From positions 1-43,811 of the forward strand of contig JAJZZA010000024.1 in assembly GCA_021797825.1 (NCBI GenBank): a stretch of DNA of 43,811 nucleotides, read 5' to 3'. Numbering within the stretch: the stretch's first letter is position 1; each line of letters begins with the position of its first letter. A program made the translations under genes and the position numbers. Under the pieces are notes generated by a model. That model saw only the letters and a list, made by a program, of their open reading frames with translations, did not search any database and had not been told where the DNA came from. This document shows, piece after piece, positions 3,380 through 41,427 of this stretch. The stretch comes from Bacillota bacterium. GTDB taxonomy: Bacteria; Bacillota; Sulfobacillia; Sulfobacillales; Sulfobacillaceae.

Positions 3380-3617
3380 TCAGTCGGCGATATCGGTCGG
3401 CGGTGGCAGGATCGCCCGTAACCAATCATGCCGCTCGGCCCGGGACACGGGAAACGGCTGTCGGCGCACCCATCGGCGCCAGTGCCAAAAGGCATATACC
3501 CGGTGCAAGGTGGCCGTGGCCCGATAGACGGCGAGCCAAGGGGCCGCTCCCCCGCCAGGGCTTGGCAATACCACGCCCACACCGCACGATCCGCCTCCGC
3601 CCACGTGACGTGATGAC
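3380..3617 (-). pseudogene. Possible frameshifted C-terminal remnant
   Basis: Beneath the 3' part of the neighbouring long frame, two other minus-strand frames together spell a more protein-like sequence. One gives VTWAEADRAVWAWYCQALAGE; after a slip in the G-rich run near 3550 the other continues through APWLAVYRATATLHRVYAFW and ends with a stop at 3380, directly before the terminator. This suggests the end of an older Trp/Arg-rich gene with a one-base indel. The family is not recognised and the reading is tentative. Confidence 0.3.
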
Positions 3618-3989
3618 ACTATTGATAAAACTGTAGGCAGACTGAGCTTGTTGCCAAGCGAGGTTCAAGCTGTTTAAAGCGTTGGTACCATCCGCATTGA
3701 TCGGCCCCACCGCTGCGGTGTTATACCAACTATACGTGTCACAAAACATCGTAAATTGACCACTGCCGGTGCCAATGACAAGACTGTCCGCACATAATTG
3801 ATCTAGCACTTTAGACATGGCAGGACCGCCAACGACAATCACGAGCTCACTACTCTTAATCCAGTTGGCGGCTTGCACCACATCGCCCGTAATTTGAGCC
3901 ACTGGAGTTCCCGCATCATTGGCGGCCCAAAAAGCCGCACCTAAATCGAGGGGAGCATCACCATAAAAATAAATCGCGGTATTCGCCAT
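3426..3989 (-). CDS. Protein of unknown function under a tandem-repeat promoter
   Basis: I do not recognise this family. The first ~128 residues look like a genuine small alpha/beta domain: a MANTAIYFYGDAP start, an ELVIVVGGPAM strand-loop and a NLAWQQAQSAYSFINSVI helix. There is no signal peptide or membrane segment. The last ~58 residues are Arg/Gly-rich and look like read-through of another frame, so the natural protein may be shorter. ATG 3989 is preceded by AAGGAGG at 9 nt; GTG 3992 is possible. Base composition is clearly lower in GC than in the neighbours, suggesting acquisition. The gene lies just downstream of an orphan OmpR-type regulator gene and of six 11-bp direct repeats, so it is a likely regulatory target. 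Confidence 0.6.
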   Translation of the reverse strand: MANTAIYFYGDAPLDLGAAFWAANDAGTPVAQITGDVVQAANWIKSSELVIVVGGPAMSKVLDQLCADSLVIGTGSGQFTMFCDTYSWYNTAAVGPINADGTNALNSLNLAWQQAQSAYSFINSVITSRGRRRIVRCGRGIAKPWRGSGPLARRLSGHGHLAPGICLLALAPMGAPTAVSRVPGRAA

Positions 3990-4083
3990 CACGTAAACCC
4001 TCCTTGGTGCCAGAACTTTAACAAGAAGCTCTGGAAGATGGATTTAGTGTACATGCCGAATCTGACGCCTAGTTGACGCGAAC

Positions 4084-4149
4084 CTCATTCGTATCTCATT
4101 TGTACCTCATTTGTACCTCACGATAATCTCACGATAATCTTACGCGGAG
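4084..4149 (-). promoter_or_regulatory. Six tandem 11-bp direct repeats, probable operator
   Basis: CTCA or CTTA starts at 4084, 4095, 4106, 4117, 4128 and 4139, an exact 11-bp step. Units 2 and 3 are identical, as are units 4 and 5. Direct repeats with about one helical turn of spacing are the classic binding array of OmpR/PhoB/SARP winged-helix proteins. The array lies upstream of the minus-strand gene starting at 3989. A TACACT -10 candidate sits at 4046-4051 (minus strand) with no good -35, consistent with an activator-dependent promoter. The sixth unit overlaps the stop codon of the upstream regulator gene. Confidence 0.75.
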
Positions 4150-4499
4150 GCCGATGACAGACCCGGTGGCCACGTGGCTACGCAAGCCGGATCCACATCC
4201 AAGAGATAGCCCGCCGCCCGGCGGGTCACGAGGAACTGCGGATGATGCGGATCGGGTCCGAGGTCCTGACGCAGGTGATAGATTCGGGTAAAGAGATCGC
4301 TAGCGGTCCGCAATTCCCCAGGCCATCCGGCCTGCAACAGGTGCGACTCGGGGAGCACGTGATTGGGATGCCGGATCAAACACCGTAAGATCTGATAGGC
4401 CCGCGCCGATAAGGCGAGAAACTGATCACCTTGCCAAATGCCTTGGCGATCCAAATCCACCCGCGTGTGTGGCCCCAGAGAAATTTGTTGCGTATCCAT
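4140..4499 (-). CDS. Orphan OmpR/PhoB-type winged-helix regulator
   Basis: A 119-residue protein consisting essentially of one Trans_reg_C winged-helix DNA-binding domain. The family pattern is clear: LSARAYQILRCLIRHPN (start of the helical part), HLLQAGWPGE, SDLFTRIYHLRQDLG (recognition helix region) and LVTRRAAGYLL (wing hairpin). No receiver domain precedes it, so control by a partner kinase is not evident. ATG 4499 follows an excellent AAAGGAGG at about 8 nt. The gene is co-oriented with the unknown gene ending at 3426, and the 11-bp repeats between them are the expected kind of target, so it probably controls that gene. Confidence 0.8.
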   Translation of the reverse strand: MDTQQISLGPHTRVDLDRQGIWQGDQFLALSARAYQILRCLIRHPNHVLPESHLLQAGWPGELRTASDLFTRIYHLRQDLGPDPHHPQFLVTRRAAGYLLDVDPACVATWPPGLSSASA

Positions 4500-5584
4500 C
4501 CGTATGCCCTCCTTTCCGGAGACGGAAATCCGACAGCCCGCTGGGATTGCTCAAGGAGGGAGGAAGACTGCAGCCTGGCAATCCGTCCCTGCCGAATGGC
4601 TGGAGAGAGGACCCAGCCCTTTGCGACCCCGGGTTACCCACGGGTGTGCCCGTGTGTGTCAATTATTGGAAGAGCGCCGAATGAGGGAGACAAGTTACAC
4701 CAGCCACCCCGCGTGAGGTAACATAATGTCTGTTTTATCGGGACCTCCCCCCGGATCCCTCCCAATGCAAGGGTGATTTTGGACCCTGAGCGCCCGGGAG
4801 CCCCGATGAGCGCCCCGTACATGCCTAGCCAAAGCGATCAAAGTCAGCGAACGGCAAACTCCGGATTTCATCGTGTTACGGGGTGATCGAATAAAAAAAA
4901 GTCCACTGGTATCGGCCAAACAATCGATGATCGCCTGTTCGAACGGCCCAAACTTCGGATAGGACCGTCCAGCTATCGTGTCGCTAATTACAAAACGCAA
5001 GACTTCGTCCGCGCGAAGTATATCCGGTTACCCGAGGGTCGCCGGTTACGTTTCCGGCTCGTTGACCGCATCCGGTGACCGTCGGGTCTTGATGACGCGA
5101 TGCATTTTACGACCCCCACACTTGCGGGAGGAACCCCCTGTAGCGACCGATAAGGTCCGGCCCCCCCTGATCACCCACCAACTGCTCGTGCCAGCGGCAT
5201 TGCGCACACGCGTGGCCTGGGGAAACTGGATGATCACCTGGTTCTCGGCCCGTTCGGGGTCCCACCGCGGAATCAGGAAAAAACCTGTCACCTAGCGGTG
5301 AGCGGTTTATTCCCTGATTTAGCAAAGGGGTTTACGGCGCATTGGATAACCTGAGGAAAATATCATGACCGTCGACCGCGTCGCCGACCGACGCATCTTG
5401 ACACACGATAAGCATAGCGTGAAAATGAACTCGTGAAACAGCCATCGCAAGCAAACGACGCGGGAGAGCCAGGTGAACGGATGCACAGGGGATGGTTCGC
5501 ATACAGGCGCTCGACGTAATGCCTTCCAGAGGAAAGCCGCAATTTTTTCCGCCAGACGACGGAAACGAAGGGAAGCTTCGGGAC
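4500..5584. other. Decayed gene remnants, minus strand
   Basis: No intact gene. On the minus strand several short frames carry protein-like stretches (for example VISDTIAGRSYPKFGPFEQA near 4950-5000 and NQVIIQFPQATRVRNAAGTS near 5180-5240) interrupted by stops and frame changes. They look like one or more pseudogenes beyond recognition. No family can be assigned. Confidence 0.45.
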
Positions 5585-29189: not shown

Positions 29190-29869
29190 ACTCCCGATCG
29201 ACCCGGCTTTATGGCTGGCAGGAGGACGGGTTGGGCGGGGTGTGGCCTCCGAGCGCGGAACGCATGGCTTTATGGCGAGCGATGGTCCAAGCGCGGATCT
29301 TGTGGGCGCTGCCCCGGACCTGGGCTGACCGGGCGGCGGGGTGGGCGGTCGGGGCGGTGTTTCGGGTCGATCGGGTGCTTCGCTTGCCGGAGGAGGCGCA
29401 AACCTCCCTTTCTCCAGAAGGCGTGCCGACCGTGCTCCCCGATGCCATCGCGTGTTTGGTGCCGGATCGGACGGGACGGCTTTGGGCCTATACCCACCGC
29501 GCGGTGGGTTCGGCGGTGCGCGCCTGCCGCCATTTTCGAATTGGCGATGCGATGGCGGCGCCCGCCCGAATCGGCTGGCTGAACGGGTTGCCGAAGGTGA
29601 CGGGGCATACCGCTTGGAGGGCGCCGTCGCCGTGGCCGGGATGGGATGCCTGGGAGACAGATCGCCGCCTGCTCCTGTTTCATCCCCGTCTCTTGGGACC
29701 GGTGGGGGCAGTGCTGGCAGACGGGAGCTTCGAACCGTCTCCCGATCTGTGCGTGAAAGGGCCGCCGCACCGTGTTCGGGTGCGCGGCCCTATTGTGCCG
29801 AACGGTTTGTGGCAGAATAATAGGGTGGAACCGATGGACGCGGCGGAGGGATGGTTTTGGCTGCCGTAA
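29186..29869 (+). CDS. Unknown protein in acyl-CoA operon
   Basis: A 227-residue protein I do not recognise. It is rich in Trp, Pro and Arg, with no signal peptide, no cysteine pairs and no obvious nucleotide or metal motif. Recognisable stretches include [20 protein letters not shown] at the start, [20 protein letters not shown] in the middle and [20 protein letters not shown] at the end. GTG 29186 overlaps the stop of the acyl-CoA dehydrogenase gene (GTGA), and the biotinyl carrier gene follows within 40 nt. Translation is therefore coupled, and a role with the acyl-CoA enzymes is likely but unproven. Confidence 0.7.
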
Positions 29870-38054: not shown

Positions 38055-40004
38055 GTGGAGTTGGACCGGTTCCTCAGCCGATTGGGTTTTCATCGCATAG
38101 TCTTCGGGTTGCGACTGACTCTTTGGGCGATGGCAGGCTTGTTGTCCCTGTCGGAGCCGTGGACGGCCGTCGTCTGGCTCGGTTTTGCCCTGGTGATGAC
38201 AATCGGGATGGCGTTGGTGCGGGACCGCCATCGGCTTGCATTGTGGAATCAAGTCATGATTCCGGTGGATTTTGTCCTGATTACGCTGGCGGTGCGGATT
38301 ACCGGCGGATTGGCCAGCGCCTGGTATCTTTTTTATGGCGGCGAGGCGTTGTTCTTGACCGCATATGGCACCGTGTTATGGGCGGCGGGCGGGGCGGTCC
38401 TGGTGTTTATCTTATACGGCTGGTCCTCGGGGCAATGGACGGATTCGGAGGTGTGGTTCCGGTCAGGATTTTTCGCCATCTTTTTCATCACCTCCGGTTT
38501 GCTCGGCGAGGTCATTCGATTAAATAGCCGCCGAGCCCGTGATCATCGGAAAAAATTCGAGCGCTTAGCCCAAATGAAAGTGCTGCAAGAATCCATTATC
38601 CACGAGCAAAAGCTGGATGTAGTACTTAATGCCATGGTTTACCAGGGGCTGCAGATGACCCATGTCGTGGCTGGATATGTGGCCTTGCTGGCGGAGGACG
38701 GCCACTGGCAACCGGCGGCCTTTGCGGAAAATGCTCCAGGTGTGGTCGACCCAGCCTGGGTTATCCCATGGATTTCCGGGATGACAATCCCCAAACACAT
38801 GGCAATTGTTGAGCTAAGCGACGAGATACCCGCGCCCCAGCGGTGCGCTATCCGATATGCGGCCATCTGCCCCTTGCGGGAGGATGGCACCGACGTGGGG
38901 GTTGTCATATTTTGCGCGCCATCCCGGGCGACTCTTGAGGAACACACCCTGTCCATCGAGGTACTGGCGGGTATGATGGTGGCACAAGTCCGGTTTCACC
39001 GAACCCGAGATATGGCGGCACACCGCGGCAACCTCTTGAAATTGTTTGAGCAAGTCGGCCGGTTGTTGAATCGCAGCCTTGACATGAGCACGCTGCTGCG
39101 GGATTTGCATCAAGCGGTGGCCGAGATTTTGGAGATCGATGGGTTTTATGTGGCCCTGGCCTTGGCCCATAACCCAACTCATGCGTTGATGCGATACGTC
39201 TACGATGATGGGAAAAGCTATCCGCAAGAGGTCATTGCGCTTGAGCCGGGCGGTATTACCGCCGATGTGCTGAAGACCGGTGAGCCGCGGATTTGCGTGG
39301 GCGCTCCCGCCACCGCGCAGTTGGGGGGATCGATGAAAACGCCGCGCGGTGTGATGATAGTCCCGTTGATTCATGAGGGCCGGGTGATCGGCGCCATGTC
39401 GGCACAATCCTATCGTGTTGAGTACAATCCGGAACACCTGGAGTTTTTGTCGGCCATTGCCTCGCAAGCGTCGGGAGCCTTGCGCAACGCCCAGCTCTAC
39501 CAGCAAACGCAAGAGGTGGCGCTTACCGATCCTTTGACCGGCCTCGGCAATTCACGCCATTTCAACGTCACCTTGCAAGAACATTGTGAACGCGCCGATC
39601 GCTTGCAACAACCCCTGTCATTGCTATTGATTGATTCCGACAGCCTAAAGGTAATCAACGACCATTACGGACACATGGCGGGTGATGCCCATTTGCAGCT
39701 GCTGGCGGATACCATCCGAAGTTCCATTCGCGAAGGGGATACGGCTTGCCGGTATGCCGGGGACGAATTTGTGGTCATTCTGCCGGCATCGCGTATCGAC
39801 GACGCGTTGGCGGTGGGTGAGCGGATTCGCCTGACCATGGATCAGGCCTTTTCTTGGGACGGGAACCTGACCCTGATGACCACCATTAGCGTGGGAGCGG
39901 CCGAATATACACCGGGAACCACGGCGGAATATCTCTTTGCCCAGGCGGATTACGCGATGTACCAGGCCAAACAACATGGCAAGAATCGGGTGGTGGCCTC
40001 TTAA
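38055..40004 (+). CDS. Membrane GAF-GAF-GGDEF diguanylate cyclase
   Basis: A signalling protein of 649 residues predicted to make cyclic di-GMP. The first ~165 residues hold five or six hydrophobic segments (for example VIFGLRLTLWAMAGLLSL-like, VDFVLITLAV, AAGGAVLVFILYGWS, FFAIFFITSGLLG). Two GAF-like sensor domains follow (~180-310 and ~325-480), then GGDEF (~490-649). The active site reads AGDEF (~568-572), an accepted variant, and the RxxD inhibitory site (REGD) stands five residues before TACRY-AGDEF in the normal place. GTG 38055 follows GAGGGAG about 11 nt upstream. Confidence 0.9.
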   Translation: MELDRFLSRLGFHRIVFGLRLTLWAMAGLLSLSEPWTAVVWLGFALVMTIGMALVRDRHRLALWNQVMIPVDFVLITLAVRITGGLASAWYLFYGGEALFLTAYGTVLWAAGGAVLVFILYGWSSGQWTDSEVWFRSGFFAIFFITSGLLGEVIRLNSRRARDHRKKFERLAQMKVLQESIIHEQKLDVVLNAMVYQGLQMTHVVAGYVALLAEDGHWQPAAFAENAPGVVDPAWVIPWISGMTIPKHMAIVELSDEIPAPQRCAIRYAAICPLREDGTDVGVVIFCAPSRATLEEHTLSIEVLAGMMVAQVRFHRTRDMAAHRGNLLKLFEQVGRLLNRSLDMSTLLRDLHQAVAEILEIDGFYVALALAHNPTHALMRYVYDDGKSYPQEVIALEPGGITADVLKTGEPRICVGAPATAQLGGSMKTPRGVMIVPLIHEGRVIGAMSAQSYRVEYNPEHLEFLSAIASQASGALRNAQLYQQTQEVALTDPLTGLGNSRHFNVTLQEHCERADRLQQPLSLLLIDSDSLKVINDHYGHMAGDAHLQLLADTIRSSIREGDTACRYAGDEFVVILPASRIDDALAVGERIRLTMDQAFSWDGNLTLMTTISVGAAEYTPGTTAEYLFAQADYAMYQAKQHGKNRVVAS

Positions 40005-40783: not shown

Positions 40784-40859
<76 letters not shown>

Positions 40860-40862
40860 GTC

Positions 40863-40938
40863 GACCCCATGGTCTAGTGGCCTAGGACATCACCCTTTCA
40901 AGGTGGTAACCCGGGTTCGAATCCCGGTGGGGTCACCA
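40863..40938 (+). tRNA. tRNA-Glu (TTC)
   Basis: A 76-nt cloverleaf with acceptor GACCCCA paired to TGGGGTC, loop CTTTCAA giving anticodon TTC, T-arm GGTTCGAATCCC, and encoded CCA. It lies 3 nt after tRNA-Ala. Confidence 0.95.
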
Positions 40939-40942
40939 TCCC

Positions 40943-41019
40943 GGGCCATTAGCTCAGTTGGTTAGAGCATCCGCCTTTTAAGCGGAGTGTCGAAGGTTCG
41001 AGTCCTTCATGGCCCACCA
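40943..41019 (+). tRNA. tRNA-Lys (TTT)
   Basis: A 77-nt cloverleaf with acceptor GGGCCAT paired to ATGGCCC, loop CTTTTAA giving anticodon TTT, and encoded CCA. Confidence 0.95.
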
Positions 41020-41026
41020 TTGACAT

Positions 41027-41103
41027 AGGCCAGTAGCTCCAATTGGTAGAGCAGCGGACTCCAAATCCGCCTGTTGGGGGTTCGAATCCCTCCTGGCCTG
41101 CCA
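41027..41103 (+). tRNA. tRNA-Trp (CCA)
   Basis: A 77-nt cloverleaf with acceptor AGGCCAG paired to CTGGCCT, loop CTCCAAA giving anticodon CCA, discriminator G and encoded CCA end. Last gene before the terminator at 41110. Confidence 0.95.
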
Positions 41104-41109
41104 GTTTAA

Positions 41110-41139
41110 GTCCCCGCCCTCAGGGGCGGGGACGTTTTT
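41110..41139 (+). terminator. Rho-independent terminator of the first tRNA group
   Basis: A perfect 10-bp stem (GTCCCCGCCC, 41110-41119, with GGGCGGGGAC, 41124-41133), a 4-nt loop and a T run. It follows tRNA-Trp by 6 nt, so the following tRNAs need their own promoter; TATGAT at 41173-41178 is a possible -10. Confidence 0.9.
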
Positions 41140-41186
41140 AAGGCGGCGGTGGCATAAGCAGGTTCAGCGTGATATGATGGCAGTGT

Positions 41187-41260
41187 GCGGGTGTAGCTTA
41201 ATGGTAAAGCCTCAGCCTTCCAAGCTGATTACGTGGGTTCGATTCCCATCACCCGCTCCA
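41187..41260 (+). tRNA. tRNA-Gly (TCC)
   Basis: A 74-nt cloverleaf with acceptor GCGGGTG paired to CACCCGC, loop CTTCCAA giving anticodon TCC, and encoded CCA. Confidence 0.95.
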
Positions 41261-41265
41261 AATTT

Positions 41266-41341
41266 GGGGCTTTAGCTCAGCTGGGAGAGCGCCTGCTTTG
41301 CACGCAGGAGGTCAGCGGTTCGATCCCGCTAAGCTCCACCA
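41266..41341 (+). tRNA. tRNA-Ala (TGC)
   Basis: A 76-nt cloverleaf with acceptor GGGGCTT paired to AAGCTCC, loop TTTGCAC giving anticodon TGC, and encoded CCA. It is the second alanine isoacceptor in the window. Confidence 0.95.
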
Positions 41342-41351
41342 TAATGGTTTT

Positions 41352-41427
41352 TGGGGAGTCGCCAAGTTGGTAAGGCACGGGACTTTGGATCCCGCATGCG
41401 CAGGTTCGAGTCCTGCCTCCCCAGCCA
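41352..41427 (+). tRNA. tRNA-Gln (TTG)
   Basis: A 76-nt cloverleaf with acceptor TGGGGAG paired to CTCCCCA, loop CTTTGGA giving anticodon TTG, and encoded CCA. Its 3' end adjoins a decayed integrase, a usual integration-site setting. Confidence 0.95.

Follow-up and report, generated by a model that had tools for sequence, protein, structure and literature searches.

Between a small OmpR/PhoB-type regulator gene and the gene that follows it, the window (the whole stretch of 43,811 nt analysed here) carries a run of 11-bp direct repeats. Which protein reads these repeats, with what effect on the following gene, and what sets the amount of that protein? An earlier note on this DNA had described regulator, repeats and target as a compact self-contained module. 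The features of the locus are listed in Table 1; elsewhere, the window also contains a cluster of seven tRNA genes (40784–41424).

Table 1. Features of the regulator–array–target locus, in the order of transcription
Feature	Position	Strand	Basis
ECF-sigma-type promoter-like element of the regulator gene	4671..4698	(-)	GTAACTT (4698-4692), CGCTCT (4676-4671)
c-di-GMP-I (GEMM-type) riboswitch-like aptamer in the regulator leader	4565..4660	(-)	RF03167, RF01051, core shared
Candidate anti-SD of the expression platform, CCCTCCTT	4553..4560	(-)	Perfect complement of the regulator Shine-Dalgarno region
Shine-Dalgarno AAGGAGGG of the regulator gene	4507..4514	(-)	Sequence
119-aa stand-alone OmpR/PhoB-type winged-helix protein	4140..4499	(-)	Pfam Trans_reg_C, without receiver domain
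Candidate tandem operator, eight 11-bp units in register	4062..4149	(-)	Period and place as in relatives
Target-promoter spacer ATTCGGCATG (10 bp) and -10-like hexamer TACACT	4046..4061	(-)	Distance as in curated loci
Shine-Dalgarno AAGGAGGG of the target gene	3998..4005	(-)	Sequence
Window target, conserved part, about 124 aa (MANTAIYFYGD...)	3615..3989	(-)	Homology to G031
Foreign GC-rich tail in place of the normal target C-terminus (truncation)	3426..3614	(-)	Homology end, GC

A receiver-less regulator is followed by eight repeat units

We searched the regulator against Pfam and found Trans_reg_C (PF00486) with 49.4 bits at a cut-off of 26.2, which makes it an OmpR/PhoB-type winged-helix protein. 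The same search revealed neither a receiver domain with its phosphoacceptor Asp, as expected of a two-component response regulator, nor a BTA domain after the DNA-binding domain, as expected of a SARP, Trans_reg_C being the only match; the earlier description as a receiver-less winged-helix regulator is thus confirmed. Its recognition helix region is DLFTRIYHLR (residues 68–77). Intact relatives measure about 103–125 aa, and comparison with the orthologue in the genome G031 gave a dN/dS of about 0.2, with dS saturated.

Read on the minus strand, the units of the array follow each other as CTCCGCGTAAG ATTATCGTGAG ATTATCGTGAG GTACAAATGAG GTACAAATGAG ATACGAATGAG GTTCGCGTCAA CTAGGCGTCAG. On the plus strand CTCA starts at 4084, 4095, 4106, 4117 and 4128 and CTTA at 4139, each step being exactly 11 bp, and two further units in the same register begin with TTGA (4073) and CTGA (4062). 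The array had been described as six exact 11-bp repeats: the 11-bp register is indeed exact, but the count is eight and the units are not identical over the full 11 bp. Two identical pairs (CTCATTTGTAC twice and CTCACGATAAT twice) are present as had been noted. Conserved among the units is a core of about T[GC]A[GA] on the regulator strand, while the adjacent 7 bp are variable. The array spans from the regulator stop codon (4140–4142), which is overlapped by its last unit on the plus strand, to 10 bp before the -10-like hexamer TACACT, as in promoters of the SARP/PhoB type, where 11-bp direct repeats end about 8–10 bp from the -10. The self-match at lag 11 was 44/55 over 66 nt, whereas the best of 200 Markov resamples of the whole window reached 32.

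A strong 9-bp periodicity was observed elsewhere in the window, at 29290–29390 (a match of 34 at lag 9, also seen at lag 18), and probably belongs to a repetitive protein segment.

The array recurs at a fixed place in relatives

Relatives were searched in 61 and then in 154 genomes of the class, the genomes compared being mostly metagenome-assembled (MAGs). Within the 154 genomes, stand-alone regulators of this type were limited to the same bacterial family and mostly scored above 75 bits, while matches elsewhere lay at or below about 70 bits and were mostly full-length regulators; a scan of the collection with a five-row alignment mostly returned the same MAGs again. For 46 related regulator loci, each with 120 nt or more of downstream sequence, we counted an array as strong when the self-match reached 24/44 no further than about 300 nt from the regulator stop. 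At lag 11 such an array was found between the regulator and the next gene in 21 of the 46 loci, compared to none of the same loci at each of the lags 8, 9, 10 and 12 to 17. This lag test is independent of the choice of anchor. For about half of the relatives the array is weak or absent, many of these cases adjoining degenerate regulators. The unit type changes with the locus (e.g. GTGTCGG, ACTGCA/CTTCA, ATCAG, GGTTAG, CTAAG). In the curated loci the distance of 10 bp between the array and a TA...T hexamer is constant and the spacer starts with WTTCG, the hexamer counts being descriptive only because the score that chooses the anchor rewards such hexamers. The family carries dozens of these cassettes, many of them before genes for cell-wall enzymes.

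The proposed contiguity of regulator, repeats and target is borne out by the 21 loci with an array between regulator and next gene, and the idea of a module survived the search for the same repeats beside orthologues, where their absence would have counted against it. The module is less self-contained than had been suggested: a candidate RNA sensor and probably an ECF-sigma promoter lie upstream, a second array exists elsewhere and the window target is truncated.

OmpR-type proteins can activate as well as repress, and the protein might bind the array in order to repress or to autoregulate, with a riboswitch in its leader (see below) relieving or imposing repression. The overlap of the array with the regulator stop codon would fit such a role. 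Against it stands the observation that, in the curated loci, the array stops 10 bp short of the -10 on the upstream side and leaves it uncovered, which is the geometry of PhoB- or SARP-type activation (PMC4415409, PMC10936776). Autoregulation via the same repeats upstream of the regulator gene was rejected as well, with the threshold reached in only 2/46 loci and no array at this place in the other 44. We consider repression or autoregulation improbable.

Recognition helix and unit sequence vary together

Across 26 loci the distance between recognition helices was correlated with the distance between unit profiles (Mantel r=0.31, p=0.002), the partial correlation given the rest of the domain being r=0.21. 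When all pairs of helix residue and unit base were scanned with max-statistic permutation, the top pair was Arg71 with G at unit position 7 (r=0.90, max-statistic p=0.002): in the promoter-proximal units G7 was observed at a mean of 3.2/4 for 13 Arg71 proteins and of 0.2/4 for 12 others. Only the window protein departs from this pattern: it carries Thr71-Arg72, and roughly half of its units show G7. When the tree was computed with the helix left out, Arg71 had to change state about four times (bootstrap range 2–4), with G7 following each change. The covariation is partly phylogenetic, and a single origin of Arg71 would be statistically compatible with it. From these data, of which the helix–unit covariation is the strongest evidence, we infer that each protein binds its own adjoining array.

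Further copies in the same genome

Exact or one-mismatch matches to the array were found in the genome only in the window and on the contig C134 (G000:C134, L052:5414-6689). The latter holds the array and the last 41 regulator residues, 90% identical to those of the window, and here the array leads a different gene, encoding a 333-aa transglycosylase-like protein with a C-terminal domain that resembles the window target. The identity between both copies stops almost exactly at the boundary of array and promoter.

Could the array be the operator of another, full-length OmpR/PhoB-type regulator, the small protein being its decayed or competing relative? About ten more Trans_reg_C-type matches are present in the genome and an 11-bp period is generic for the OmpR/PhoB family; yet the unit sequence varies by locus and follows the helix of the adjoining protein (Arg71 with G7), and close matches to the array occur in the genome only beside the stand-alone protein or its truncated copy, so that we regard this explanation as very unlikely. 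The units could also have arisen by slippage or recombination and be devoid of a regulatory function, for instance as a junction for cassette exchange, and both the sharp end of the identity between the window and C134 and the mosaic nature of the cassettes would agree with this. However, differing units keep the 11-bp period and the promoter distance in many loci, and slippage would explain neither the fixed phase relative to the -10 nor the covariation with the protein helix. We give this origin hardly any credence.

The three copies in this genome show different damage: the C134 regulator is truncated, the regulator of a third copy on contig C131 is frameshifted, and in the window the target is truncated and the ECF-like -10 altered. 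With damage in all three, the window copy could be in the course of decay. In this genome the system as a whole gives the impression of partial decay, provided that the damage does not stem from MAG errors.

A promoter-like element and a candidate aptamer precede the regulator gene

The element upstream of the regulator gene resembles an ECF-sigma promoter, a type marked by an AAC motif at -35 and a CGT motif at -10 with fixed spacing. GTAACYT-N15-CGTTAT, or a version one letter off, was found at identical spacing upstream of the regulator in 24 of 47 loci, and the window differs from the CGTTAT of its relatives by two substitutions (CGCTCT). In ten genomes this pattern gave 69 matches, compared to 3 for the reversed control pattern, and its copies may represent an uncharacterised ECF-like regulon. 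The element is strongly enriched in the family, with 21 copies in G014.

Against RF03167 the candidate aptamer of the window reached 25.9 bits (E=4.7e-4 in 421 nt; gathering cut-off 59) and against RF01051 29.2 bits (E=0.0014 over the whole genome; gathering cut-off 35). In the genome of 3.59 Mb, just two c-di-GMP-I matches were found, each directly upstream of such a regulator: the one in the window and C131:2660-2753, which exceeds gathering with 41.7 bits. Other aptamer-led regulators were observed in G031:C73, G001:C66, G007:C130, G017:C85, G027:C103 and G026:C143, which brings the total to eight leaders, spread over seven genomes and five genera. The aptamers of C131, G031, G001 and G007 are above gathering (sibling scores 41.7, 41.9, 43.5 and 61.5), those of G027 and G026 belong to the same sub-type as the window copy, and in all eight the core GGCACACCCG and GGGGTCGCAAAG is invariant.

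Among about 46 relatives, only 8 have a recognisable aptamer directly upstream. When 20 more regulator leaders were scanned permissively against Rfam, no c-di-GMP aptamer emerged, which rules out that it is common to all regulators, and degenerate relics were recognised in the L054 and L076 leaders. The regulators of L073 and L085 have in common a conserved and seemingly structured leader without a match in Rfam, which might be a sensor RNA of another kind.

The ligand is probably available, since 13–14 GGDEF domains are found in the genome and other aptamers of the family precede EAL and kinase genes. These other c-di-GMP-I riboswitches (L136-L163) lie before genes for a secreted protein of ~470 aa (YGINVFSYDSQLNAPST...), DegS-like histidine kinases and EAL proteins, the identities of the genes being assigned by eye from sequence. 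The window itself encodes a GGDEF (diguanylate cyclase-type) domain at 39519–39989.

Regulator, array and target might still work together while the window aptamer has lost c-di-GMP sensing or senses another cyclic dinucleotide. Its scores below Rfam gathering and the relics in the L054 and L076 leaders point in this direction, whereas the core that is unchanged over five genera and the shared sub-type in G027 and G026 argue against it; we regard such a change as somewhat unlikely. Downstream of the aptamer, CCCTCCTT is complementary to the Shine-Dalgarno sequence AAGGAGGG of the regulator. This suggests that the aptamer controls translation of the regulator, with CCCTCCTT acting as a putative anti-SD.

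Target genes behind the arrays

The window target is 88% identical to a 156-aa homologue in G031, and over its first 124 residues dN/dS is about 0.03 with dS saturated, which indicates strong purifying selection. Homology with L054/L064 stops at the tail boundary (3614/3615). The target had been described as low in GC: at 0.50, compared to 0.60 for the window, its conserved part is only mildly low, and the tail reaches 0.70. The conserved domain is also present at the C-terminus of transglycosylase-like targets; its structure model (pLDDT 72) has an alpha/beta fold, for which no PDB match at E<=0.001 was found.

Genes behind other arrays encode GH25 (E=9e-23), Rv2525c-like GH (E down to 1.3e-30) and transglycosylase-like (SLT-like) proteins. 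Many array-led targets have no family match, and some arrays lead another regulator, a glycosyltransferase-like protein or an 80-aa protein. By these assignments the targets are diverse and often wall-related. A phage origin of the targets was rejected, as the PHROGs matches were only weak (transglycosylase, glycosyltransferase, sigma).

At two loci (L070:7550-7969 and L069:4135-4874) regulators occur in tandem, the array of one lying before the gene of the next, which is possibly a cascade. The second L070 regulator is a mosaic whose N-terminus resembles that of the adjoining glycosyltransferase-like gene. We further noticed a protein of ~80 aa (MESLETLTPxQLLRLTQIELRCVQEC...) that recurs near cassettes in L070, L075, L088 and L089, and the same clusters contain a sigma-like protein and glycosyltransferase-like proteins (PSHDxRAVVxTLxELGxV...).

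Proposed mechanism

From the computed array with its period and position, the helix–unit covariation, the family-wide recurrence and the aptamer homology we infer binding, activation rather than repression and a response to the ligand. We consider it probable that a c-di-GMP riboswitch controls a receiver-less OmpR-type activator, which acts through a tandem operator on a wall protein, the whole being a portable cassette. An ECF-type promoter would give rise to a transcript with a c-di-GMP-I riboswitch leader, and the riboswitch would set the amount of the small receiver-less OmpR/PhoB-type protein, probably via translation. This protein would sit head-to-tail on the 11-bp units directly 3' of its own gene, where the promoter-proximal subunit, 10 bp upstream of the -10, could substitute for a -35 element, and would activate the next gene, coding for a wall-associated hydrolase or a wall-binding-like protein. 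Through the number of units the output would be cooperative and concentration-dependent instead of depending on phosphorylation. The window protein probably also acts on the near-identical C134 array.

For a more general reading we see about even chances: a multi-copy portable cassette in which an RNA sensor of c-di-GMP replaces the receiver, a code of residue 71 and position 7 specific to each copy insulates paralogues, and the wall-hydrolase target is freely exchanged. Such cassettes would be a compact wiring of c-di-GMP to a promoter with neither kinase nor receiver, and would tie c-di-GMP to wall-active proteins in poorly known Bacillota, mostly MAGs. The some 25 regulator–operator pairs offer a natural library from which the recognition code of OmpR/PhoB winged helices could be read, and pairs of a small regulator and a tandem operator are potential orthogonal parts.

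Comparison with known systems

In our literature search we found no description of this type of regulator with a c-di-GMP-I riboswitch, nor of a receiver-less version with an attached operator. The nearest described case is CmrRST of Clostridioides difficile, where a c-di-GMP riboswitch lies upstream of OmpR-family regulators and, as proposed here, the riboswitch in the leader governs production of the OmpR-type regulator; CmrT has lost the typical two-component signal cascade, and the outputs include cell chaining and biofilm (PMC12548384). In contrast to the window regulator, which consists of the DNA-binding domain alone, CmrR and CmrT retain receiver domains in a two-component-type operon, and no multi-unit operator is described beside the gene, whereas the candidate operator and target directly follow the regulator in the window. 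With c-di-GMP-I (GEMM) riboswitches (RF01051/RF03167) the window copy shares the aptamer core, but it scores below gathering and its downstream gene encodes a stand-alone winged-helix protein.

PHO boxes, including the complex operators of Streptomyces, consist of several direct repeat units of 11 nt in varying number (PMC4415409). PhoB/PhoP thus resemble our system in their 11-nt direct repeats, bound head-to-tail by a Trans_reg_C domain, with binding being predicted here; they differ in being full-length phosphorylated regulators with a genome-wide regulon, whereas the present proteins lack a receiver, and the unit sequence beside each regulator is particular to its locus. Small SARPs bind direct repeats spaced by 11 bp close upstream of the -10 and activate a suboptimal promoter (PMC10936776). 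They share the OmpR-type DNA-binding domain and the 11-bp direct repeats near the -10 with the window regulator, but possess a BTA domain, which the latter lacks, and belong to antibiotic clusters of Streptomyces.
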